A DNA stretch of 62,160 nucleotides from a virus. Below the pieces are notes generated by a model. That model was not told where the DNA came from. It saw nothing but the letters and a program-made list of their open reading frames with translations, and searched no databases. This document shows positions 1,817-60,233 of this stretch, one piece after another; positions within the stretch are counted from its first letter, which is position 1; every line of letters starts with the position of its first letter. The stretch covers positions 1 to 62,160 of the IMG/VR virus record IMGVR_UViG_3300020129_000334; one strand, 5' to 3'. The translations under genes and the position numbers were made by a program.

Positions 1817-1817
1817 G

Positions 1818-1831
1818 TGTGACCGGTCACA
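1818..1831. promoter_or_regulatory. Perfect palindrome TGTGACCGGTCACA next to a start codon
   Basis: This 14-base perfect inverted repeat sits directly in front of the start codon at 1816, where a bound protein would block the ribosome site or promoter. Its half-site TGTGA resembles the CRP-family half-site, though CRP itself uses a 6-base spacer and here it is 4. It is probably a dimer operator for a phage or host regulator. Confidence 0.55.
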
Positions 1832-3018
1832 ATGCACCCTGCAGTCCAAGGCAGCGCGACATGGTTGCAAGCGCTTGCAAGTGAGCAAGTGACGAAATGC
1901 GGCCATCGAGCTCCCTACCGCGAGCCCATGCCAACGGAGCGAGGAAGGGCTTTCCCCTGCGATCCGGAGCATTTGCGGCGAGTGACGAAAATTGTCAGCG
2001 CCTGCTAGAGAGAAGGACGTTTTTCGGCACTATCGGCCGGGCTGACAGTCCTGCAGTGCTGACAGCCTGCTAGCGAGGAGAGTGAGACGGCTCGCAAGAG
2101 CCGGCGAGCGGGGCTTGCAAGCGAGGATGAGCTAGCAAGCTGGGCAAGTGAAGAGGAGAGCGAGACGAGAGCCGCACGACATGGCCCGCATGGTTTGGGC
2201 GAGTAGCGGCCTGATAGTCGTGGCTGCAGGCGCTGTAGCAGGACGACGTCACGCGCTTGCTGGCCTCACTCAGCAGGGGAAAAGGCTTGGGAGCACCGCT
2301 GGGGTCGGGTTTGAGGCTACGTTCGTTTCCTCGGCCCCAGTGGTTCGCCCGCTTTGAAGCTCAGAAGAGACGCGGGCTTGCTCTCCTCGCCCGTACACGT
2401 GGCGCACACCGCAATCGTAACGCTGCGTAATCGTTGGCTGCTCAGTGGCCAGGTTGGCAGGCGTCGCGAAAGCCCTGTCAGCGCGCGCAGTGTGAACGTG
2501 TACCTGCGTTTACGTGAACGGTGGGAATTCAAGTGCGGGCGGAACCTCGAGCCCCGCCCCTCCCCAACGTCCCCCCGCATACTTAGCCCAGGGGGGGGGT
2601 AGGCCCGGGGGCTCTCGGGCTCATCGCTGATCGATCGCGACTTCGCGAATTCGCCAGCAAAACGACGTCCGCCCTCAGGTAGCCATCGGAATCGCGAATT
2701 GCCCACTTTCAAGTCGTCCCCCCTCACCTTCCCCGCTTGCAAGTGGCACGCTTTCCGACGTAGCTTGCAAGTGCCGCGGGGGCGTGGTGCCTGGAGATGC
2801 GCCAGGACGGGTCTGCACGTTTCGTCCCCTTGAATCACCCCGCGGTCCTCTTCCGGTTGAGCCGCCAGTGGATGAGGCGCGCCAAGTGCCCCCGGCTCCA
2901 GCTCGCATCGAAGTGAAGCTTGAGGTAGCGCGCCAGCCGCTCGAGATGCGCACGTGGGGCCTGCAGTAGCTCCCTGCGCTTCATAGAAACGGAGCGCCCC
3001 ATCCTGCGACTCGAGCCC
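1832..3018. promoter_or_regulatory. Gene-poor control region with repeated CTTGCAAG motifs
   Basis: About 1.2 kb between the end of the HTH/SLOG regulator and the first leftward accessory gene. No convincing gene on either strand; the open frames here have odd compositions and no ribosome sites. It holds the palindrome TTGCAAGCGCTTGCAA (1865-1880) and CTTGCAAG at 2114-2121, 2736-2743 and 2764-2771. Related half-sites (GCTAGCAAGC, GCAAGTG) lie near 2130-2150, GCTGACAG repeats at about 2040-2070, and a run of nine G near 2591. Promoter/operator or replication-origin roles are plausible. Confidence 0.5.
1865..1880. promoter_or_regulatory. 16-base perfect palindrome TTGCAAGCGCTTGCAA
   Basis: A perfect inverted repeat formed by two overlapping copies of the TTGCAAG element found at many gene starts in this genome. 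It lies about 50 bases upstream of the leftward start at 1816 and is followed by the extra half-site GAGCAAGTG. This is the strongest version of the site, so it may be a principal operator. Confidence 0.6.
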
Positions 3019-4566
3019 TCACGTTGTCCTTCGCTCCTTCGGCCACGTCACGTCCCAGCCATCGGATACGTCAATCTCCCGCACCTCCACGTTGGCCTTG
3101 CGCAGGCGGCGAGCCAGGTCGGTCGTACTGCGGCCTCCGGGGAAGGCGATCACGACGTCCGGCTTCTCCACGCCATCGTAGGTCTCGTAGCTGATGCGGT
3201 TGTCCTTGGCCCAGCTCCGCGCATAGCTTTCGACGCCGCTCCCGCCATTCTGCAGAACCATGTCCACGCCGCGCTCGGCCTGAAGGGCGTCCAGGTGCTT
3301 GCGAACGATGACGCGGCGGTGATTGCCGATCTTGGATCGCGAGCCGATGACGAGGACGCGCACGCCAAAAGCAGCGGTGGGGGTAGTCCCCTTTCCGGAA
3401 ACCTTACCGGAGGACGCCGCCTCGCCCCTGGTTCCATTCGCCTCCGGCAGCATCCCCCGCGCCGCCGCGAAGCGAAGGACATCCGCCGTCGAATGCGCCC
3501 CGACCTTCCTGTTGATCTTGGCGCGGTGTGTCTGAACCGTCTTGATGCTGAGCCCCAGCTTCTTCGCGATGCCGGCATTGGTGGCGCCGTCCACGATCAG
3601 ATCGAACACCTCCCGCTCGCGTGCCGAAAGCTTCTCGAGCCCAGAGTCGGTGCGGACCGGAGCCTTCGGAATCTCAAGCCCATGAGCGAAACGAACGACG
3701 TCCGCCGTCGAATGGGCCGTACCGAGCACACGGTAAATGCTGCCGAGGTGCGTTCGGATCGTGCTGATGCCGAGCCCGAGCTTTGCGGCGATCTCATTTC
3801 CGCTCATTCCCTCTGCAACCAAGTCGAACACCTCGCGCTCCCGTGGGGTCAGCTTCGCGAGCTTCGACACATCCGGTGGCGCGATCCTGGACGGGGGCGC
3901 TTCCCTCAGGTTCAGTCGCTTGGCCAGCCGCGCCATCGCTGACTCGAGCGGGCCCAGTTGCAGCGCCAGGCCGATCGCCGCCAGCTCGCCGACGTCGGAG
4001 CGTGCCGCCTGCTCGAGAAGCTGCACGACCGTCGCGATCGCCTCGAGCCCCTCACGTGCCGGGCTTGTGGCCGAGGCCTCCCCAATGAGCGCGCCGAGCG
4101 GAACACCGAGCCCCTTCGCCAAACCGATCGCTGTCGAAAACTTCGGGTCCACGTTTCCCCATTCCATGCGTGAGATTTGCGTGTGATGCGTTGAGCTTCG
4201 CTTGGCCAACTCCGCCTGCGTCCATCCGCGCGCCTCGCGAAGAGCGGCCAGCTGCTTCCCGAAGTCCGTCATGCTCGGAATCTCCGCGATCGGCTCCAGC
4301 TCCTCGGCCGGTGGCAGATCGGGAATGTCGTTCGGATCGCCGTCGAGCAATTGGCCCATGGTGATGCCGAAGACGTGCGCCAGGTTCGCGAGCGTGGAGA
4401 GATGCAGGTCCATGTTGGCCTCCCCCAGCTCCAGCCGATTCACCTGACGCCGATCCGTCCCCGTCTTCTTGCCCAGCTCCCCCAAGCTCCACCCGCGAGC
4501 CGCCCGAAGCGCCCGCACGCGCGTAGACAGAACGGCGCCCAGTCCCGGCGGAAGTTGACCCCTCAT
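3019..4566 (-). CDS. Multidomain regulator: XRE-XRE-LuxR-LuxR-SLOG (DUF2493)
   Basis: A 515-residue protein with five readable domains. Two XRE/Cro-type HTH domains come first (about residues 8-66 with ARGWSLGELGKKTG; about 98-160 with ARGWTQAELAKRSS). Two LuxR/GerE-type HTH domains follow (about 236-300 with LTPREREVFDLVAEGMS; about 308-375 with LSAREREVFDLIVDGAT). The C-terminus is a Rossmann-like SLOG domain of the DUF2493/YspA type (about 400-510), with VLVIGSR, a central GGSGVES and VVIAFPGGRSTTDLARR. SLOG domains are thought to bind or process nucleotide-derived ligands, so this looks like a ligand-sensing DNA-binding regulator. It is the last gene of the long leftward operon, and its ATG overlaps the preceding 43-codon gene as ATGA. 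DNA targets and ligand are unknown. Confidence 0.85.
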   Translation of the reverse strand: MRGQLPPGLGAVLSTRVRALRAARGWSLGELGKKTGTDRRQVNRLELGEANMDLHLSTLANLAHVFGITMGQLLDGDPNDIPDLPPAEELEPIAEIPSMTDFGKQLAALREARGWTQAELAKRSSTHHTQISRMEWGNVDPKFSTAIGLAKGLGVPLGALIGEASATSPAREGLEAIATVVQLLEQAARSDVGELAAIGLALQLGPLESAMARLAKRLNLREAPPSRIAPPDVSKLAKLTPREREVFDLVAEGMSGNEIAAKLGLGISTIRTHLGSIYRVLGTAHSTADVVRFAHGLEIPKAPVRTDSGLEKLSAREREVFDLIVDGATNAGIAKKLGLSIKTVQTHRAKINRKVGAHSTADVLRFAAARGMLPEANGTRGEAASSGKVSGKGTTPTAAFGVRVLVIGSRSKIGNHRRVIVRKHLDALQAERGVDMVLQNGGSGVESYARSWAKDNRISYETYDGVEKPDVVIAFPGGRSTTDLARRLRKANVEVREIDVSDGWDVTWPKERRTT

Positions 4567-4694
4567 TTCTTCTTCTCCGCAAGCTCTCGCAACCGGGCGG
4601 CATTAGCGTTCTTGGCGCCGTTCGTCTTCCAGCGCTTGTGCGGTTTGCAGACGCCGCAGCGCGGACCGCACCCGTTGTGCTTCGACCGGCTCAT
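4563..4694 (-). CDS. 43-aa zinc-knuckle-like protein
   Basis: Starts MSRSKHNGCGPRCGVCKPHK at ATG 4694 and continues with a basic helix. Three closely spaced Cys and a His suggest a small metal-binding knuckle. Its start overlaps the previous stop and its stop overlaps the start of the XRE/LuxR/SLOG regulator, both as ATGA, so the three genes are translationally coupled. Small proteins of this kind are frequent in phages; function unknown. Confidence 0.65.
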   Translation of the reverse strand: MSRSKHNGCGPRCGVCKPHKRWKTNGAKNANAARLRELAEKKK

Positions 4695-9564: not shown

Positions 9565-10128
9565 TCAGAGGCTCAGTTGCCAGTACCAGTGCTCCCAGGG
9601 CTCCCAGTCGGCATCGTTCGCGCCCCCGAGCTTGACCTCCGCATAGAAACCGCTCGTCCAGCCTCCGATGGGATCGCAGATCGTGGCATTGCTGCACCAC
9701 ATGCGGCGGAGGACCAGGCCGTCATTGTCGTGCGTGATCTTCCCGTTCCAATTCAGCGTCCACCGCTGGCGAGGATTGTTCGGGTCGCAATTGACCGTGC
9801 CGATATTGTAGGCCAGATGGTCCCCAAACTCGTCCAGATTGCTAAGGCACTTCCAATTCCACTTGCTGACGATCTGGTGCGTGTTGAGGTTGTAGGCCCA
9901 TTGCTGATTGATCAGGCCATTGCAGTCCCACATCGCCACGTAGGCGCCATTCGTGTTGTTGAAGGCATACACGTCGAGGCACTGGCCGGCTGCCTTCAAA
10001 GAGCCGATATCGTAGGTGGGCGGCGCGGAGACGGCTTGGGCCTGTGTGCTGGTTTCCTCGCTCGAGGTAACAGGTGCGGCGCAGGCGGCGAGAGCGAGAG
10101 CGAAGATGAAAATGTATTTGCGGATCAC
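9565..10128 (-). CDS. Ricin-B-type lectin lipoprotein 1, 187 aa
   Basis: GTG start at 10128. The N-terminus is a lipoprotein signal with lipobox ALAAC (Cys16), followed by an SSEET-rich linker. The mature part is a ricin-type beta-trefoil-like lectin: CLDVYAFN, WDCNGLINQQWAY and RQRWTLNWNGK show the repeated Q-x-W signature and WDCNG turns. Such domains bind galactose-type or other glycans. It is the most downstream of three tandem paralogues, followed by an outer-membrane barrel. It is probably anchored in the outer membrane of the lysogen; why a phage carries it is unknown. Confidence 0.8.
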   Translation of the reverse strand: MIRKYIFIFALALAACAAPVTSSEETSTQAQAVSAPPTYDIGSLKAAGQCLDVYAFNNTNGAYVAMWDCNGLINQQWAYNLNTHQIVSKWNWKCLSNLDEFGDHLAYNIGTVNCDPNNPRQRWTLNWNGKITHDNDGLVLRRMWCSNATICDPIGGWTSGFYAEVKLGGANDADWEPWEHWYWQLSL

Positions 10129-10159
10129 GATGGTCCTCGTTTTGCGGGTGAGCGATTCG

Positions 10160-10747
10160 TCAATTGACGGTCAGTTGCCAGGTCCAGCGTTCCCAGGTCT
10201 GCCAATCGGCGTCATCGCACTTCCCGAGCATTACGGCCGTCCAATAGCCGTGCGTATAGCCCCCAGCGCCGTCCGGATTCGTGACTGCATGGGTGAACCA
10301 CTGACGACGCATGCACCATTCTGGATGGGTGTCGTAGATGATCTTTCCGTTCCAGTTGAGCGTAAACCGCTGGCGCTCGTCGTTGGGATCGCAGTCATTC
10401 ATGCCGATGGATATAGCCCCCATCCCGTACCAATCGTGATTCCACGTGGTAAGGCATTTCCAACTCCACTGGCTCACGATCTGGTGCGTGGCGAAGTTAT
10501 AGGCCCACTTCTGATTTTGGAGACCGTTGCAGTCCCAATTGGTCAGCGTACCGAGGGCGCTAAGTGTGTTGAAAGCGTAGACGTCGAGGCAATAGCCGTT
10601 CTCCTTCAAAGATCCGATGTCATAGCCGGGGGGCGCAACGACGGCCTGCGATTGGCTGCCGGTTTCTTCGGATGACGACGTGGGAGCCACGCACCCGGGC
10701 GCAGTCAGCGCAACGAAGATGGCCAACGGGAAAGTCTTACGAATCAT
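10160..10747 (-). CDS. Ricin-B-type lectin lipoprotein 2, 195 aa
   Basis: Paralogue of the neighbour. I take the second of two tandem ATGs (10747; the first is at 10750) because AGAGGAC then sits at a normal distance. The signal peptide ends in a lipobox-like APGC (Cys19), then SSSEETGSQSQAV. Lectin repeats are seen as CLDVYAFN, WDCNGLQNQKWAY and RQRFTLNWNGK. Divergence from copy 1 (for example Phe replacing Trp in one Q-x-W) argues for an old duplication under diversifying use. Confidence 0.8.
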   Translation of the reverse strand: MIRKTFPLAIFVALTAPGCVAPTSSSEETGSQSQAVVAPPGYDIGSLKENGYCLDVYAFNTLSALGTLTNWDCNGLQNQKWAYNFATHQIVSQWSWKCLTTWNHDWYGMGAISIGMNDCDPNDERQRFTLNWNGKIIYDTHPEWCMRRQWFTHAVTNPDGAGGYTHGYWTAVMLGKCDDADWQTWERWTWQLTVN

Positions 10748-10770
10748 CATGTCCTCTTTGCGGTTGGATT

Positions 10771-11283
10771 TCAGTCCCAAGCGAAGGTGGAGTAATAAGG
10801 CCATTCGGAATCGTGGCAGCCGGCGAGAAACAAAGCGTCCCCGCTCCCATGGCTGTTGCCGGGGCTATGGTCCCAGTATTGGGCACGCAGGCACTTGCCA
10901 TCGTACTGGTTGATGATCTCGCCGCTGAGGCTGTCGAATGACCAGCGCTGATTTGGCAGTCCGTTGCAGTCCCAAAGGCCAACGGAGGTATGGTCAAAGC
11001 CGATGTTGTCGAGGCACTTGCCGTTGTACTTCGAGACGATCGCATGCGTGTCGGCGTTGTAGACCCAGCCCTGATTGACGAGGCCGTTGCAGTCCCAGAG
11101 ATCGAGCGTGAGATTGCCGTTGCGCGTGTTGAACGAGAAGACGTCGAGGCAAAGACCGCGGGTCCGGATCGTCCCGAGATCGGTGACATACGCCTCGCTC
11201 GTTGTGCCGGTGTCTTCGGATGGCGCTGGGGCCCCACATCCGCAAAGAAGCGCGAGCAGCCCGAGGGGAATTAGCCGGCGCAT
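10771..11283 (-). CDS. Ricin-B-type lectin lipoprotein 3, 170 aa
   Basis: First of the three in transcription order. ATG 11283 overlaps the previous stop (TGATG). The signal peptide MRRLIPLGLLALLCGCG has a lipobox around Cys14/Cys16, then SEDTGTTSEAY. The trefoil repeats are the most regular of the three: CLDVFSFN, LWDCNGLVNQGWVY, CLDNIGF, LWDCNGLPNQRWSF, CLRAQYW. It is a predicted outer-membrane or surface lectin. Confidence 0.8.
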   Translation of the reverse strand: MRRLIPLGLLALLCGCGAPAPSEDTGTTSEAYVTDLGTIRTRGLCLDVFSFNTRNGNLTLDLWDCNGLVNQGWVYNADTHAIVSKYNGKCLDNIGFDHTSVGLWDCNGLPNQRWSFDSLSGEIINQYDGKCLRAQYWDHSPGNSHGSGDALFLAGCHDSEWPYYSTFAWD

Positions 11284-11615: not shown

Positions 11616-11642
11616 GGTCGGCTCCTTTCACTTGCCGGTCGT

Positions 11643-12973: not shown

Positions 12974-13675
12974 TCATTCCGCGGCCTGGGCGTGGCTCAT
13001 GGCATGGGCGAAGTAGTCGCGGAGCACATTCAGCGCCTCAATCAGCCGTGCGTCCGTCTTCAGCTTCTTATTCTCGTTCTTAAGCTCGATGTTCTCCGTC
13101 GCGAGCTTCAGATTCTCCGACTCGTACAGCTTGAGCAGCTCCTTCTGATCGCCATCGGGAAGCGCCTCCACTGCGGCCGCTGTCGTATCGGGATCGGCCT
13201 TCATCTCGGCCTTCGGTGCTGCGGCAGACGGAGGGGGCGGCGGAACGGGCGGCGGCACTTCGCCTTTCAAGAGATGCTCCGGCGCGCTCATGTCGAAAGC
13301 CGGGTCGTCAATGTTGACGGGGACCGCGTTCCGGATGCCCTTTACAAGCCGCGGACGGGACGGTGCAGGCTTTCGCTCAACGCTGGCGCCCGTCTTTGCC
13401 AGTGGCTTGAAGAGCGTGGGCCACTTCGCCGCTTGCTTCGGAAGCATGACAAGCGGAAGTCGATGGTCCTCGGCAATCTTCTTCACTCGTGCCAGCTCAC
13501 CGTGGCTCGCCATCTCGTGCATGAAGAGCACACCATCGCAGCCGTAGAGATTCGGTGAATTGCGGTTTGCGTCGTAGATCCGGTCGCCAATTTCGATGTC
13601 ATGTAGCTTCAACTTGGCGATGATGCCGACGAGAAACTGCGCCGGAAAGTGACTGAAGAGAGCTGCCTGGATCAT
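12974..13675 (-). CDS. DUF2325-like Rossmannoid plus coiled coil, 233 aa
   Basis: ATG 13675 overlaps the PadR-like gene stop as ATGA; the longer frame upstream is in that gene's shadow. The N-terminal part has GCDGVLFMHEMASH and RVKKIAEDHRLPLVMLP. This pattern resembles DUF2325, where an acidic/His loop and a basic helix follow a strand. A basic and Pro-rich linker (PPPVPPPPPSAAA) leads to a C-terminal coiled coil. It is convergent with the small terminase gene. Function unknown; family call tentative. Confidence 0.55.
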   Translation of the reverse strand: MIQAALFSHFPAQFLVGIIAKLKLHDIEIGDRIYDANRNSPNLYGCDGVLFMHEMASHGELARVKKIAEDHRLPLVMLPKQAAKWPTLFKPLAKTGASVERKPAPSRPRLVKGIRNAVPVNIDDPAFDMSAPEHLLKGEVPPPVPPPPPSAAAPKAEMKADPDTTAAAVEALPDGDQKELLKLYESENLKLATENIELKNENKKLKTDARLIEALNVLRDYFAHAMSHAQAAE

Positions 13676-14038: not shown

Positions 14039-14052
14039 TGCAAGCGCTTGCA
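14039..14052. promoter_or_regulatory. Perfect palindrome TGCAAGCGCTTGCA
   Basis: Lies between the PadR-like gene (leftward) and the GNAT gene (rightward). It is the same double TTGCAAG element as at 1865-1880, lacking only the outermost bases. A further half-site (ACTTGCC on the minus strand) lies about 10 bases away. Probably a dimer operator controlling one or both divergent units. Confidence 0.6.
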
Positions 14053-14125
14053 ACTGCTGCCTTTCCACTTGGTGAAGGGCGCTCCGTAACTCGTCGATAA
14101 CGTCCAAGAATCCGAGGCCTGACCG

Positions 14126-20559: not shown

Positions 20560-21828
20560 ATGTCTCTTGCCACGTTTGACATGACCGCCGCTGCTCAGGT
20601 CCTCAAGCAGCGTTATACCCGCAAGAAGCTCAATACTCTCTCGTACAACAACAACACGCTCCTGGCACTCATGCCCAAGGACGAGGCGCTGGGCTCCAAT
20701 GCGTTCGTCTTCGGCGTGCGGAATGCCGTTGCGCAGACCCGTAGCTGGAACGGCTTCTCGCAGTCGCAGGCTTCGACAGCCAATCCCGGTGGCGCCAGCA
20801 CTTATAACCGGTTCGTTGTTCCCCACTACAACGACTACACGACGGCCAACATCACCGGCGACGCGATCGATTCCGCGAAGGGTGATGAGAACACGCTGAT
20901 CAACGTGCTGACGGGTGAGATCGATGGCGCCCTCTACACGGCGTCGCGGTCGCTGGCGATCAGCATGTATAAGAACGGCGGCGGCGCTCGAGGCCAGATC
21001 AGCGCTACGTCGAACACCGCGACGACGACGATCACGCTCGCGAACCCGACGGACATCGTCAACTTCGAGGTTGGTATGCCGGTCGTCCTTTCGACGGCAG
21101 ACGGCACGACGGGCTCGGTCAAGAACGGTGTGGCGTACATCGGCGCGATTGACCGCGACCTCGGCACCCTCACGGCGGCGGCGTCGCTTGTGGCGATTAC
21201 TACGCCCGTCAACTGGACGGCCCAGATCGGAACGGCAGCGGCGAATGACTACATCTTCCAGCTCGGCGACTTCGGCAATGCGATGGTCGGCCTGGCGGGA
21301 TGGATTCCGCAGACGGCGCCGGGCAACACGGACAACTTCTATGGCGTCAACCGCAGCTCCGATGCGACGCGCCTTGCGGGTGTTCGCTACAGCGGTGGTG
21401 GCGGCCCCATCGAGGAAACGCTGATCGAGTCGGCGGCGCGGCTGGTTCGTGAAGGCAGCGAGCCCGATTACGCGACGCTGAACCCGCTCAACTATTCGCA
21501 GCTCGTGAAGGCCCTTGGCGCGAAGGTCTTTTACGATCGGGCGAAGGCGGTCGATGACCCCGATATCGGCTTTGAGGCCGTGAAGCTCATGGGCCCCAAG
21601 GGTCCGATCAAGGTCGTGGCTGACGTCAACTGCCCCTTTGGCGTGTCCTACATGCTGAAGATGGACACGTGGAAGATGCGGTCCATTGGCAAGGCGCCGC
21701 GCATCATCGACCTGGACGAGGTATCGATGCTCCGTATCAACAACGCTGATGCGTACGAGGTTCGTATCGTCTCGCGTGTCTGCATCACGTGCGACGCCCC
21801 GGGCTGGAACGCCGTTATCACCCTCTAA
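20560..21828 (+). CDS. Major capsid protein, 422 aa
   Basis: Starts at ATG 20560 (MSLATFDMTAAAQVLKQRY); the TTG 12 bases upstream is not needed. The size, a start with KKLNTLSYNNNTLLALMPKD, Gly/Thr-rich middle strands and a long helix region (IEETLIESAARLVREGS) fit an HK97-fold coat protein as in podoviruses with similar gene order. The gene follows the scaffold and has its own leader with a hairpin. Fold assignment is by order and composition, not by a diagnostic motif. Confidence 0.8.
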   Translation: MSLATFDMTAAAQVLKQRYTRKKLNTLSYNNNTLLALMPKDEALGSNAFVFGVRNAVAQTRSWNGFSQSQASTANPGGASTYNRFVVPHYNDYTTANITGDAIDSAKGDENTLINVLTGEIDGALYTASRSLAISMYKNGGGARGQISATSNTATTTITLANPTDIVNFEVGMPVVLSTADGTTGSVKNGVAYIGAIDRDLGTLTAAASLVAITTPVNWTAQIGTAAANDYIFQLGDFGNAMVGLAGWIPQTAPGNTDNFYGVNRSSDATRLAGVRYSGGGGPIEETLIESAARLVREGSEPDYATLNPLNYSQLVKALGAKVFYDRAKAVDDPDIGFEAVKLMGPKGPIKVVADVNCPFGVSYMLKMDTWKMRSIGKAPRIIDLDEVSMLRINNADAYEVRIVSRVCITCDAPGWNAVITL

Positions 21829-23935: not shown

Positions 23936-23943
23936 CTTGCAAG
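23936..23943. promoter_or_regulatory. CTTGCAAG operator-like site at the reversed lipoprotein gene
   Basis: Lies in the 41-base gap between the divergent lipoprotein gene (start 23907) and the virion gene starting at 23949. It is identical to the core repeated at other gene starts in this genome, so the same regulator may control this cargo gene. Confidence 0.5.
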
Positions 23944-46373: not shown

Positions 46374-46527
46374 CGGCTCCCCCTTTCACTTGGGAAATGG
46401 GCAAGGGGCGCCAAACGCTTACGCGTCCAACACCCCAAGCGAGCCGCAACCTACGCTTTCACTTGCAACACTTGCAAGCGTTATTTTCTACACAGGTTTC
46501 CCACCCGTGACCCGCTTTGAAAGCGCC
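46374..46527 (-). promoter_or_regulatory. Promoter/operator region of the Bet operon
   Basis: A 154-base gap. CTTGCAAC (46462-46469) and CTTGCAAG (46471-46478) lie in tandem, followed by an A/T-rich GTTATTTTCTACAC stretch that is unusual in this GC-rich DNA and could hold a promoter. The ribosome site for bet (AAAGGGGGAG) lies at the left end. Probably the regulated promoter for recombination genes. Confidence 0.5.
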
Positions 46528-47220
46528 TTACTCCGGGCCTGCGTTTCGCGGCGTTTCCTCGGGAGCGTTGCGCGGGTCGGCGATCTTCAAGGCCGCTTCC
46601 AGGCGATCCAGAACTTGCTGCCAGTGGCTGGGCGTCGGCAGGTCGCGATCCCCATGCGTGCCGTAGCCGCTGCGTGCCGTTTCGACGGCCTGCTCGGGCC
46701 AATTCCGCCCATTCTCGCCATGGTAGAGCAGGCAAAGCTCCAGGTTGGGGAAGCGCGCGTCCTTCAGGTGCACGAGTCGCGTCAATGCCGCCAAACGATG
46801 GCCCTCCCCGGTCGCCCACTTGGACGAATCGCGGGAAGGTACAGGGTGCGTCCCGTTCTGGGCAACTGCTTTGGGCTTGGGCGGCGCGAGCTTGGGCGGA
46901 TTCGCCGCGAGGTGCTGACGTCGCTCTTTCCACTTCGGCAGATCGGCCTCTTTCGCGATGGCCTTTGCTGCTGCGGCCGGCGTGATCTCCAGGCTCGCGA
47001 GCTTGTCGATGATCTCGGTCGAGACCTGAAAGGCCACCGCCAGCGCTTGCCGCTTCCGGGCAGACAGGAGCGCGCTATGGCCGCTTTCAAGCTTCGAAAT
47101 GTCCGAGTACGAGAGCCCCTCGTCGTGCCCGCGGAGCACCAAGTCCTTCGGCGCGAGGCCAACTTTCTCACGAAGAGCCTTGAAAGCGGCTCCGATGTCG
47201 CGTTTATCTGCCACGATCAC
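46528..47220 (-). CDS. XRE-family HTH regulator (CI-like candidate), 230 aa
   Basis: GTG start at 47220. The N-terminal 75 residues form an HTH (IGAAFKALREKVGLAPKDLV, LSYSDISKLESGHSALLSAR). The remainder is a basic Pro/Lys-rich linker and a C-terminal helical region with HLKDARFPNLELCLLYHG. It diverges from a small gene at 47355 across 134 bases containing inverted repeats. That is the layout of a lysogeny switch, so it is a candidate repressor. There is no S24 protease motif. Confidence 0.65.
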   Translation of the reverse strand: MIVADKRDIGAAFKALREKVGLAPKDLVLRGHDEGLSYSDISKLESGHSALLSARKRQALAVAFQVSTEIIDKLASLEITPAAAAKAIAKEADLPKWKERRQHLAANPPKLAPPKPKAVAQNGTHPVPSRDSSKWATGEGHRLAALTRLVHLKDARFPNLELCLLYHGENGRNWPEQAVETARSGYGTHGDRDLPTPSHWQQVLDRLEAALKIADPRNAPEETPRNAGPE

Positions 47221-47654: not shown

Positions 47655-47662
47655 GTTGCAAG
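47655..47662. promoter_or_regulatory. GTTGCAAG site before the 47680 gene
   Basis: A single-mismatch version of the CTTGCAAG element, 18 bases before the ATG at 47680. It lies in the 58-base gap after the Cro-position gene. Consistent with a shared operator family at gene starts. Confidence 0.4.
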
Positions 47663-47679: not shown

Positions 47680-47868
47680 ATGGACGAGGATGAGTATCGA
47701 TCGCTCCTCCGACGCGCAGCTGGGGCACTTCGGGACGTAGATCGGGCAGCGGCAGGAGCGAGAGAGTTAGCCGCAGAAATCGACGAAAAGCTGGACGATG
47801 AGGAGCGACGCCATGAGCAACGGGGCGATCGGAACAACGGGGAAGGGATACCGAATGGTAACGGGTGA
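47680..47868 (+). CDS. Small helical protein, 62 aa
   Basis: ATG 47680 follows a GAGGGGG site and reads MDEDEYRSLLRRAAGALRD. It is a charged helical protein (GARELAAEIDEKLDDEERR) with a Gly/Asn-rich tail. Its 3' end overlaps the start of the ParB-like gene in another frame. Function unknown. Confidence 0.55.
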   Translation: MDEDEYRSLLRRAAGALRDVDRAAAGARELAAEIDEKLDDEERRHEQRGDRNNGEGIPNGNG

Positions 47869-51856: not shown

Positions 51857-52663
51857 ATGGACCCGTTCCTTCTGCACCATGGGGATTGCCTCGCCTGGCT
51901 CCGCACGCTGCCGGACAACGACGTCGACCATGTAATCGTCGATCCGCCGTATTCGCCGACGGTGCACGGCAAGAGCCGGAGCGGGCGCAATCTCCCCGAT
52001 GCCGAAGGGGGGGAAGATTTCAACTGCAAGGCGCGGCGGGCGATCGACTTCGGCTTTGAGGCCATCACTCCGGACCAGATCCAGGAGCTTTCGAAGGAAT
52101 ACGCCCGTCTCGCCAAGCGGTGGATTCTGATCTTTAGCGACGTCGAGTCCAGTCATCTTTGGCGCGCGGCGCTAGCGGAAAATGGCTCGGAATACGTTCG
52201 CACCGGCGCCTGGGTCAAGCTCCGAGGAACGCCGCAATTCACGGGAGACCGCCCCGGTACCGGCTTCGAAGCCATCACGATCGCGCACCGCAAGGGTCGC
52301 AAGCGCTGGAACGGCGGCGGCAAGGTGGGCGTGTGGACGCACGCGGTGGTCGCCAATTGCAACGGCCATCGTCAGGATCGCGTGCACACGACGCAGAAGC
52401 CGATCAGCCTGATGGTGGAGTTGGTGACTGACTTCACTGACCCGGGAGATCGCATCTTGGACTCGCACATGGGATCGGGAACCACGGGAGTTGCGGCCGT
52501 TCGCCTGGGCCGTCGCTTCGTCGGGTGCGAGATTCAGCCGCGGAACGACACGGAGCCGGATTACTTCGGCATCGCGCGCGACCGCCTTCAGGCCGAGCTG
52601 ACCGATTCGGATCTGACCGCGATGCGCAACGGCCAGGTTCCCTTGTTTACGAAGGCAGGTTGA
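51857..52663 (+). CDS. DNA N4/N6 methyltransferase, 268 aa
   Basis: The catalytic motif DPPY is at residues 29-32 (VIVDPPYSP) and the AdoMet-binding motif is DSHMGSGTTG (about 202-211), after THTTQKPISLMVELV-type motif X. This order (DPPY before the G-loop) is the beta-type arrangement, methylating adenine N6 or cytosine N4. There is no partner restriction gene, so it probably protects phage DNA from host restriction or alters regulation. Start ATG 51857, just after the preceding stop. Confidence 0.85.
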   Translation: MDPFLLHHGDCLAWLRTLPDNDVDHVIVDPPYSPTVHGKSRSGRNLPDAEGGEDFNCKARRAIDFGFEAITPDQIQELSKEYARLAKRWILIFSDVESSHLWRAALAENGSEYVRTGAWVKLRGTPQFTGDRPGTGFEAITIAHRKGRKRWNGGGKVGVWTHAVVANCNGHRQDRVHTTQKPISLMVELVTDFTDPGDRILDSHMGSGTTGVAAVRLGRRFVGCEIQPRNDTEPDYFGIARDRLQAELTDSDLTAMRNGQVPLFTKAG

Positions 52664-55034: not shown

Positions 55035-55044
55035 GCTTGCAAGC
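55035..55044. promoter_or_regulatory. GCTTGCAAGC palindrome before the 55105 gene
   Basis: A perfect 10-base palindrome with the CTTGCAAG core in the 84-base gap 55021-55104. It is followed by further half-sites (GCTAGCAAGC, CTCTTGCCAAC) about 15-30 bases on. Probable operator of the rightward unit starting at 55105. Confidence 0.5.
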
Positions 55045-55783: not shown

Positions 55784-55791
55784 CTTGCAAT
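55784..55791. promoter_or_regulatory. CTTGCAAT site before the 55849 gene
   Basis: One mismatch from CTTGCAAG, in the 69-base gap between two rightward genes. It lies about 60 bases upstream of the GTG at 55849, whose ribosome site is GGAAGGAG. Confidence 0.35.
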
Positions 55792-56959: not shown

Positions 56960-57460
56960 TCAGCTTACCCTACTTGCAAGTGCCGCCTTGCAAGCGTCGC
57001 AATTGGCTAAGTCAGGTTCGTCAATTCCGGTCCACCTGTGACCCATCGGCCATTGCCCCGGAACGCGGCTGTCAAAGCGGCAGAGGGCAAAGCCGTGCTC
57101 GAGGATATGCACGCGGACAGCGCTGTAGAAGTAATAGGCCCGTAGTGCGTTCTGCCGCTTCGTGCGGTGCTCCGACTCGTAACAAGCAGGACCGCATTCA
57201 TGGTCTAGGCCCTTGAGTCGTACCGATTGCTGATGCTCGGCTGAGCCTATGATCGACAGGAAATTGCACTCCATATGCAACGGACGGAACGAATCGCCGC
57301 TGTCTGTGACCACCATGAAGGTTCCGCGATGGTGAGCTTCAATCGGCTCGTCGCACCAGAAGCAAAGAAACCCCACTGGCACCGGCACGCGCTCGAGGCC
57401 AGGGAGGTCGTAGCCAAAGGTCTTTATCGCTCCGTAGGTGTCGGATTCGTCTTCGGTCAT
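56960..57460 (-). CDS. Cys/His-rich phage protein, 166 aa
   Basis: ATG 57460 overlaps the upstream stop (ATGA): MTEDESDTYGAIKTFGYDLP. FLCFWCDEPIEAHHRG and PLHMECNFLSIIGS form a likely zinc site. A C...C pair follows (HECGPACYESEH), and the end LANCDACKAAL forms another. Proteins with this W-C...H-x-E-C...GS layout occur in phages but have no known function. Confidence 0.65.
   Translation of the reverse strand: MTEDESDTYGAIKTFGYDLPGLERVPVPVGFLCFWCDEPIEAHHRGTFMVVTDSGDSFRPLHMECNFLSIIGSAEHQQSVRLKGLDHECGPACYESEHRTKRQNALRAYYFYSAVRVHILEHGFALCRFDSRVPGQWPMGHRWTGIDEPDLANCDACKAALASRVS
56973..56994. promoter_or_regulatory. Tandem CTTGCAAG sites
   Basis: CTTGCAAG at 56973-56980 (inside the palindrome ACTTGCAAGT) and 56987-56994. 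They lie in the last codons of the gene at 56960-57460, upstream of the zinc-ribbon gene starting at 56944. This is the only copy found inside a coding end, and it is still at a gene boundary. Confidence 0.5.
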
Positions 57461-57804: not shown

Positions 57805-58160
57805 TCTCGGGGTCCCTGGTAATCGAATGGCTGAACGAATCCGCGGGCCCAAGGGCAATCGTCCTCGTTGGTGCGGCCCCAGTCTCGAGCGTTACCAGTA
57901 AAGCCGAAGTCCCAGGCAATGCATTGGCAGAGAATGAACGGAGGCTCGCTATGGTCGCGCGTGCTGAACGTGAGGATGCGATAGGGCACGCCGTCGATCA
58001 GAGAGATGGAGAACACCGTGGCGAGGTCGGCAATCAACGCGCGATGCTCGGGCCGATAGCCAGCAGGTGGATTGGCAGGAACGGGAAGCCAGTGGTCGCG
58101 CTGCTCGGCCCAGGCACGTATGCGCCCGATCTCCTCCGTGCTGTAGACCATGAGCATCAT
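57801..58160 (-). CDS. Hypothetical protein, 119 aa
   Basis: ATG 58160 overlaps the upstream stop: MMLMVYSTEEIGRIRAWAEQ. It is a soluble alpha/beta protein with a Trp-rich second half (CIAWDFGF, ARDWGRTNEDDCPWARG). The GGGTCCCTGGTAA repeat falls inside its last codons (57810-57822), encoding YQGP. Function unknown. Confidence 0.6.
   Translation of the reverse strand: MMLMVYSTEEIGRIRAWAEQRDHWLPVPANPPAGYRPEHRALIADLATVFSISLIDGVPYRILTFSTRDHSEPPFILCQCIAWDFGFTGNARDWGRTNEDDCPWARGFVQPFDYQGPRE
57810..57822. repeat. GGGTCCCTGGTAA repeat, copy 2
   Basis: Exact 13-base copy placed in the end of one gene, 6 bases upstream of the start codon of the membrane-anchored PadR-like gene. The same relation to a following leftward gene is seen for the other copies. 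Confidence 0.65.
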
Positions 58161-58566: not shown

Positions 58567-58794
58567 CTAGGGGTCCCTGGTAAGTGGTTCGGCCTGGGAT
58601 TCGCCGGCTCTCCAATAACCGAGCGCTTCACGAAGGCCATCCTTCAGCTCGGGGAAGGACCGGAATTCCTCGATCAGGGCCGCAACATCACCTCCCCGCC
58701 TCTTTGCCTCATCGTCGAGCCGGCGTGCGATCAGGAGGCCCGAATAGTGACGGTTCCAGCTTCGAAACTCGTTCGGGTCGATTCTCCGGCTCAT
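58567..58794 (-). CDS. Small helical protein, 75 aa
   Basis: ATG 58794 overlaps the RHH protein stop (ATGA): MSRRIDPNEFRSWNRHYSGL. Helical (ALIEEFRSFPELKDGLREAL). Its last codons and stop fall in the repeat copy at 58571-58583 (encoding LTRDP). The adjacent ribbon-helix-helix gene suggests a regulator/partner pair such as antitoxin/toxin, but no toxin motif is seen. Confidence 0.55.
   Translation of the reverse strand: MSRRIDPNEFRSWNRHYSGLLIARRLDDEAKRRGGDVAALIEEFRSFPELKDGLREALGYWRAGESQAEPLTRDP
58571..58583. repeat. GGGTCCCTGGTAA repeat, copy 3
   Basis: Exact copy spanning the stop region of the 75-aa gene and ending five bases before the next start codon (ATG at 58566 on the minus strand). 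On the minus strand it reads TTACCAGGGACCC followed by CTAG. Confidence 0.65.
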
Positions 58795-58994
58795 TGCTGC
58801 GACAGGCCCGAATAATGGCGGATGCAGTCCACGATCACCTCGCTTCGGTTGGTGGGGCGGCCCCCCTTGGTGCGACGCAGGGCCTCCTCCTCCGCCCACG
58901 TGATCAGCTCCTGGGGCAAATACAGCTCGATGCCCCTGCGATCCCGCTGCGCGCGGCTGGCCCTCGAGCGGCACTCGTATCGCTTTCCCGCCAT
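58791..58994 (-). CDS. Ribbon-helix-helix (CopG-like) DNA-binding protein, 67 aa
   Basis: ATG 58994 (GAAAGGTG ribosome site) reads MAGKRYECRSRASRAQRDRR. The strand RGIELYLPQ is followed by ELITWAEEEALRRTK and GRPTNRSEVIVDCIRHY, the ribbon-helix-helix pattern of CopG/Arc dimers. A GTG six codons upstream is an alternative start. It likely binds operator DNA in the 58995-59353 control region in front of it. Confidence 0.7.
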   Translation of the reverse strand: MAGKRYECRSRASRAQRDRRGIELYLPQELITWAEEEALRRTKGGRPTNRSEVIVDCIRHYSGLSQQ

Positions 58995-59024
58995 GTTTGC
59001 CACACCTTTCACTCGTGGTTCTAG

Positions 59025-59037
59025 GGGTCCCTGGTAA
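59025..59037. repeat. GGGTCCCTGGTAA repeat, copy 4
   Basis: Exact copy in non-coding DNA 31 bases upstream of the ribbon-helix-helix start codon. It keeps the flanking CTAG seen at copy 3, so the conserved unit is at least CTAGGGGTCCCTGGTAAG in these two. Confidence 0.65.
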
Positions 59038-59140
59038 GCGGTCGGGACCTAAATCGCCAGACTCCCCCCAAGGGTGCCCGGTCACATGCGCCGTTGCAAG
59101 CGGCCTCGAGCCGGCCGGCCAGGAGTCCCTAGCGGCTTAG

Positions 59141-59153
59141 GGGTCCCTGGTAA
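59141..59153. repeat. GGGTCCCTGGTAA repeat, copy 5
   Basis: Exact copy about 104 bases from copy 4. A one-mismatch partial copy (GAGTCCCTAGC) lies between them, and the flank CTTAGG resembles the CTAGG of copies 3 and 4. Confidence 0.65.
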
Positions 59154-59353
59154 CTTGCTCCGGCCCGGATTTTCTACGCGCAAAATGGCTGGTCCTGGGC
59201 GATCGCCTGGGGGCAAAAGGCCGCTACCGAACGGTTGTCCCGCGCGGATTACGTAATGATTAGGCCACACTGCGCGGTTACGCTGAACGTGAAGGCTCGT
59301 CCGCACTGCGCGCGTTCACTTGCAAGCGCCCTCTGTCAATGGACGTGCCGTGT

Positions 59354-60155: not shown

Positions 60156-60233
60156 TGTGACTGGCTCCTTTCACTTGCTCGTCCATGCATGCGCCCCGAG
60201 GAGAGTAACCCGCGAGACGCATGCGACAGAGGA

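Follow-up and report, generated by a model that had tools for sequence, protein, structure and literature searches.

Sporadic fusions of SLOG domains with HTH domains have been described in phages by Iyer, Burroughs, Anantharaman and Aravind (2022; PMC9503650), and the text of that paper proposes that they control transcription by NAD+/ADP-ribose-sensing. The literature found held no experimental test of this signalling link, which stands there as a proposal only. As the fusions and their logic are already in print, at least in the text of PMC9503650, the concept is known, and what is new at the locus described here is its exact architecture. We analyzed a window (the whole stretch of DNA under study, 62,160 nucleotides) that comprises a complete IMG/VR record, a 62-kb contig, and that carries on its minus strand a gene (3019-4566) for a regulator with two XRE HTHs, two GerE HTHs and one SLOG domain.

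The contig encodes terminase, portal, RecT and a tyrosine integrase; its source is a temperate tailed phage, and the phage setting assumed in the original prediction is thereby supported. With an integrase in its gene set, the phage can be expected to encode a lysogeny regulator. Searches with the portal and the terminase found no close phage relatives. A capsid-type protein, named so by its position (20560-21828), had no match in Pfam, PHROG or 50,697 phage records, yet it has 64 relatives (loci) in IMG/VR, indicating an undescribed phage group. The regulator gene was absent from the 30 records searched of these 64 capsid-sharing viral loci, many of which are fragments, suggesting that it probably has no core function. 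Enrichment of the motif CTTGCAAG (see below) was not found at the capsid-sharing loci, the loci themselves being all that this search covered, and Rfam gave no matches on the window. Inside the leftward operon, 9565-11283 holds three neighbouring genes for lipoprotein-like products that carry ricin-type beta-trefoil lectin domains and are possibly surface or lysogenic-conversion proteins, and a phage DNA N6/N4 methylase is encoded at 51857-52663.

The domain order of the regulator is XRE-XRE-helical linker-GerE-GerE-SLOG. Pfam matched HTH_3 (7e-23, two stretches), GerE (4e-30, two stretches) and YAcAr (1.5e-7), each exceeding its own gathering score, with HTH_3/HTH_31 likewise resolved into two stretches, and in the AlphaFold model of the full chain each XRE domain has five helices, each GerE domain has four and the C-terminal domain is Rossmannoid, the XRE and GerE folds mostly at high pLDDT. 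The five domains that had been called from the sequence alone are thus all above the Pfam cut-off and all fold in the model. All are encoded on the minus strand. The first XRE HTH covers residues 9-80 (4327-4542; Pfam HTH_3/HTH_26, five helices within 9-74) and the second residues 99-165 (4072-4272; Pfam HTH_3 at 106-158, helices within 99-161); the two are 38% identical, and the second was modelled at lower confidence because its alignment was one sequence deep. Residues 166-230 (3877-4071) form a helical linker, with AlphaFold helices at 169-217 mostly below a pLDDT of 50, which is a possible dimerisation segment. The GerE/LuxR-type HTHs span residues 231-300 (3667-3876; Pfam GerE, pLDDT ~94) and 306-375 (3442-3651; Pfam GerE at 312-367), and their identity of 58% at the amino acid level (66% at the nucleotide level) makes internal duplication the most likely origin. 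The YAcAr (YspA/cpYpsA) SLOG, assigned by Pfam PF10686, AlphaFold and Foldseek, occupies residues 401-500 (3067-3366). The two five-helix XRE HTHs, seen by both Pfam and AlphaFold, place the protein with XRE (HTH_3) regulators. It does not fit the LuxR quorum-sensing type: GerE occurs twice, neither copy is C-terminal, and the 25 Pfam families listed included no autoinducer domain. Those families also included no receiver domain, the N-terminus being XRE and not of the NarL/FixJ type, and no S24 peptidase domain of the kind that marks CI/LexA-type repressors.

Weighing these data, we see about an even chance that the regulator is a transcription factor of the phage in which a SLOG serves as sensor module, a reading supported by the five Pfam domains, the predicted folds and the exclusively intergenic position of the CTTGCAA sites (16 intergenic versus 0 coding). 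The four HTHs on one chain, all of which look intact, would bind DNA, and the C-terminal SLOG would act as a built-in input module that binds and does not catalyze, given the loss of its RNxxM segment. A nucleotide-derived ligand at the SLOG, perhaps an NAD+/ADP-ribose derivative from the infected host, would then alter DNA binding. That the targets include the dispersed intergenic CTTGCAAG sites is the weakest step and a doubtful one. Against the whole scheme, the SLOG, with its segment gone, may be unable to bind any ligand, and other DNA-binding proteins of the phage (46528-47220, 13672, 57457 and 58791) could own the CTTGCAAG sites. If the SLOG does gate DNA binding, a single protein would tie a developmental decision of the phage to nucleotide signalling in its host, and the CTTGCAAG set provides a ready DNA target for testing such gating.

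CTTGCAAG is present in 10 perfect copies in the window versus 0.88 expected, and all 10 lie in DNA outside called genes, which makes up 13.9% of the window and in which a Markov model of intergenic DNA predicts 0.15. CTTGCAA, counted on either strand, occurs at 16 sites (10 of them perfect palindromes), all intergenic and none in ~53 kb of coding DNA, where 'intergenic' depends on a simple gene caller and low-scoring open frames exist in 1817-3018, e.g. at 2317-2838. Such codons are little used in a GC-rich genome, which helps explain the zero in genes, not the intergenic excess. The sites are single or paired 9-28 bp apart, and several precede a gene start, among them that of recT, by 33-135 bp. 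The densest group, with four perfect CTTGCAAG sites and one GTTGCAAG, occupies the 1.2 kb directly downstream of the regulator gene (1817-3018), a stretch without a convincing gene. It consists of a GTTGCAAG-CG-CTTGCAAG double site (1864-1881) ~60 bp upstream of the leftward gene at 1816 and of CTTGCAAG sites at 2114-2121, 2736-2743 and, 28 bp from the latter, 2764-2771. Elsewhere, CTTGCAAG was located at 23936-23943 between divergent genes, at 55036-55043, 65 bp upstream of gene 55105, twice within 56973-56994 (14 bp apart, 33-47 bp upstream of leftward gene 56944) and in intergenic DNA at 59319-59326. The related sites are an intergenic CTTGCAAC (14047-14054) within TGCAAGCGCTTGCA, a CTTGCAACACTTGCAAG double site (46462-46478) ~100 bp upstream of recT, an intergenic CTTGCAAT (55784-55791) and two further copies of GTTGCAAG, one (47655-47662) flanked by the leftward XRE-like gene 46528-47220 and the rightward gene at 47813 and one intergenic (59093-59100). 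The perfect palindrome TGCAAGCGCTTGCA, made of two joined CTTGCAA-type units, is identical at 1866-1879 and 14039-14052. A reading of TTGCA as a sigma-54 -12 element was rejected, as inspection by eye found no TGGCAC at the right distance.

Both CTTGCAAG and TGTGACCGGTCACA had been put forward as operators. The former is strongly enriched (10 versus 0.88), whereas TGTGACCGGTCACA occurs once, as one of 11 perfect 14-bp palindromes in the window versus 8.5 expected; it is within chance and was rejected. We conclude that CTTGCAAG is a strong operator-like motif, and that its binding by the regulator is plausible, if rather unlikely. A serious possibility, short of an even chance, is that the CTTGCAAG sites belong to the XRE-like protein (so called by eye) of 46528-47220 or to the protein of 58791-58994, and that the regulator acts on other phage or host promoters. 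The latter candidate is a small protein that is ribbon-helix-helix-like by eye, with no Pfam match; PadR-like proteins are encoded at 13672 and 57457. Sites around recT and at 57-59 kb are close to these candidate genes, and tandem short 8-bp palindromes would suit small dimeric repressors equally; however, the densest cluster (four perfect sites in 1.2 kb) adjoins the regulator gene on its downstream side and not the other candidates. This alternative is about the targets, and a SLOG sensor would fit with it too. Two additional repeats were detected. TAGGGGTCCCTGGTAA, possibly a phage promoter element, occurs in five copies with up to 3 mismatches (1523-1538, 57807-57822, 58568-58583, 59022-59037 and 59138-59153) versus 0.19 expected, and two of them, at 1523 and 59022, precede the starts of leftward genes by ~20-30 bp. 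AAGTGAAAGGAG, a ribosome-site leader with 11 matches at up to 2 mismatches versus 2.6 expected, precedes several leftward genes (copies at 11622-11633, 46380-46391, 59003-59014 and 60165-60176).

YAcAr is the YspA/cpYpsA-type SLOG family PF10686, formerly DUF2493, and the regulator SLOG matches it with 31.5 bits versus a cut-off of 28.2. Modelling of the isolated domain with 64 viral relatives gave a pLDDT of 84.9 and a pTM of 0.78 (AlphaFold). In Foldseek searches the top rank in BFVD went to viral YspA SLOG proteins (5e-8), and in the PDB MoCo carrier, LOG and YpsA proteins were among the top matches, all weak. The GxR, GG and FPGG..T loops are retained (VIGSR, FPGGRSTT), and G, R, FPG and T are invariant across 65 aligned SLOG domains. 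The R-N-x-x-M segment, kept in 76 of 77 viral relatives (those with a recognisable PGG motif), is missing from the regulator SLOG. The spacing from GG to PGG is 34 residues versus 54-59 in nearly all viral relatives, and together with the alignments it places the loss of ~20 residues (AGPxRNxxM) at 3157-3180 on the minus strand. The loss indicates a shortened, derived SLOG that is probably a non-enzymatic sensor or else a degenerate remnant; from its motifs the domain more probably binds than catalyzes, unless it is a remnant. Thus, the SLOG assignment of the original prediction is supported by Pfam and AlphaFold, while the ligand-sensing role attached to it became less certain with the loss of a near-invariant segment. 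It is possible, though on the unlikely side, that the SLOG is degenerate and merely a folding or dimerisation module, the regulator being a constitutive multi-HTH protein without ligand control. In addition to the lost segment, GAD is changed to GVE in the alignment with viral relatives, and the helix between strands 3 and 4 is missing in the AlphaFold model; the retained GxR and FPGGxxT loops argue against degeneration. In SLOG and LOG proteins these loops line the nucleotide site.

For a more ambitious form of the SLOG-gated factor, a ligand-gated four-HTH master repressor that would itself read a nucleotide-derived immune or stress signal and in which host NAD+/ADP-ribose signalling would release a stoperator-like CTTGCAAG network, we see a slim chance. 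Repeats are scattered between genes as in stoperators, whereas the asymmetry of stoperator sites is not found. Slimmer still is the chance that the regulator is an anti-defence protein whose SLOG sequesters or detects an immune signal derived from NAD while its HTHs activate counter-defence genes. Such a role is proposed for viral SLOG domains in the text of PMC9503650, but the ~40 window proteins scanned showed no domain that handles ADP-ribose, be it Macro, NADAR, Nudix or another, and the absence of the RNxxM segment counts against it as well.

Neither the best 80 of 422 nor the best 80 of 349 viral SLOG loci in IMG/VR contained a chain joining SLOG and HTH, and no similar fusion was found in the 50,697 phage records, in 72,556 plasmids, in a pattern scan of GTDB or in 399 Pseudomonadota and 397 Actinomycetota genomes (~800 bacterial genomes, which may not be of the host's group); these scans began from short patterns or a sample, so that absence is no proof. 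The Pseudomonadota genomes gave mostly SLOG proteins with open frames of ~310-440 aa, and in the five of these that were read no HTH segment was visible. One tblastn match to GerE and SLOG (L132) was rejected, because its GerE part comes from translating a different gene out of frame. Within the searches made, the five-domain architecture is a singleton. The claim that it is unfamiliar therefore holds in that no second copy was found, and is weakened in that SLOG plus HTH in phages is already published, as the text of PMC9503650 has it. It is highly improbable that the fusion, a singleton in an IMG/VR record, arose as a chimera in the assembly of a metagenomic contig or is a pseudogene on it, given its open frame of 515 codons (ATG to TGA, no internal stop or frameshift), a third-position GC of 0.73-0.86 across all five domains, which speaks against a chimera, and its ATGA coupling to the preceding gene. 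The frame is one gene, as predicted, and not two joined by a frameshift. Its ATG overlaps the TGA of a small upstream gene (4563-4694, minus strand), which makes translational coupling plausible, and it is the final gene of a leftward run from ~12.4 to 3.0 kb, in agreement with the predicted place at the end of an operon.

The regulator shares the GerE HTH with LuxR/NarL-type regulators, and its GerEs are closest to those of response regulators; here, however, they are in tandem, XRE domains stand in front, and autoinducer and receiver domains are lacking. With stand-alone viral YspA/YAcAr SLOGs (PF10686) it shares 32-46% identity in the SLOG domain, a common fold and the GxR and FPGG motifs, whereas those proteins are ~120 aa long, carry no HTH and contain the RNxxM segment. 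Cluster A mycobacteriophage immunity repressors (PMC9283540) would, if our inference holds, be similar in having two DNA-binding domains per chain and many scattered sites; their stoperators are asymmetric and they have no SLOG, unlike the palindromic sites and the SLOG found here. Set against the phage SLOG-HTH fusions of PMC9503650, the regulator has two XRE and two GerE domains, an arrangement not described in the text of that paper, and a SLOG without the RNxxM segment; as in those fusions, to the extent that the text describes them, a SLOG and DNA-binding HTHs are joined on a single phage chain.
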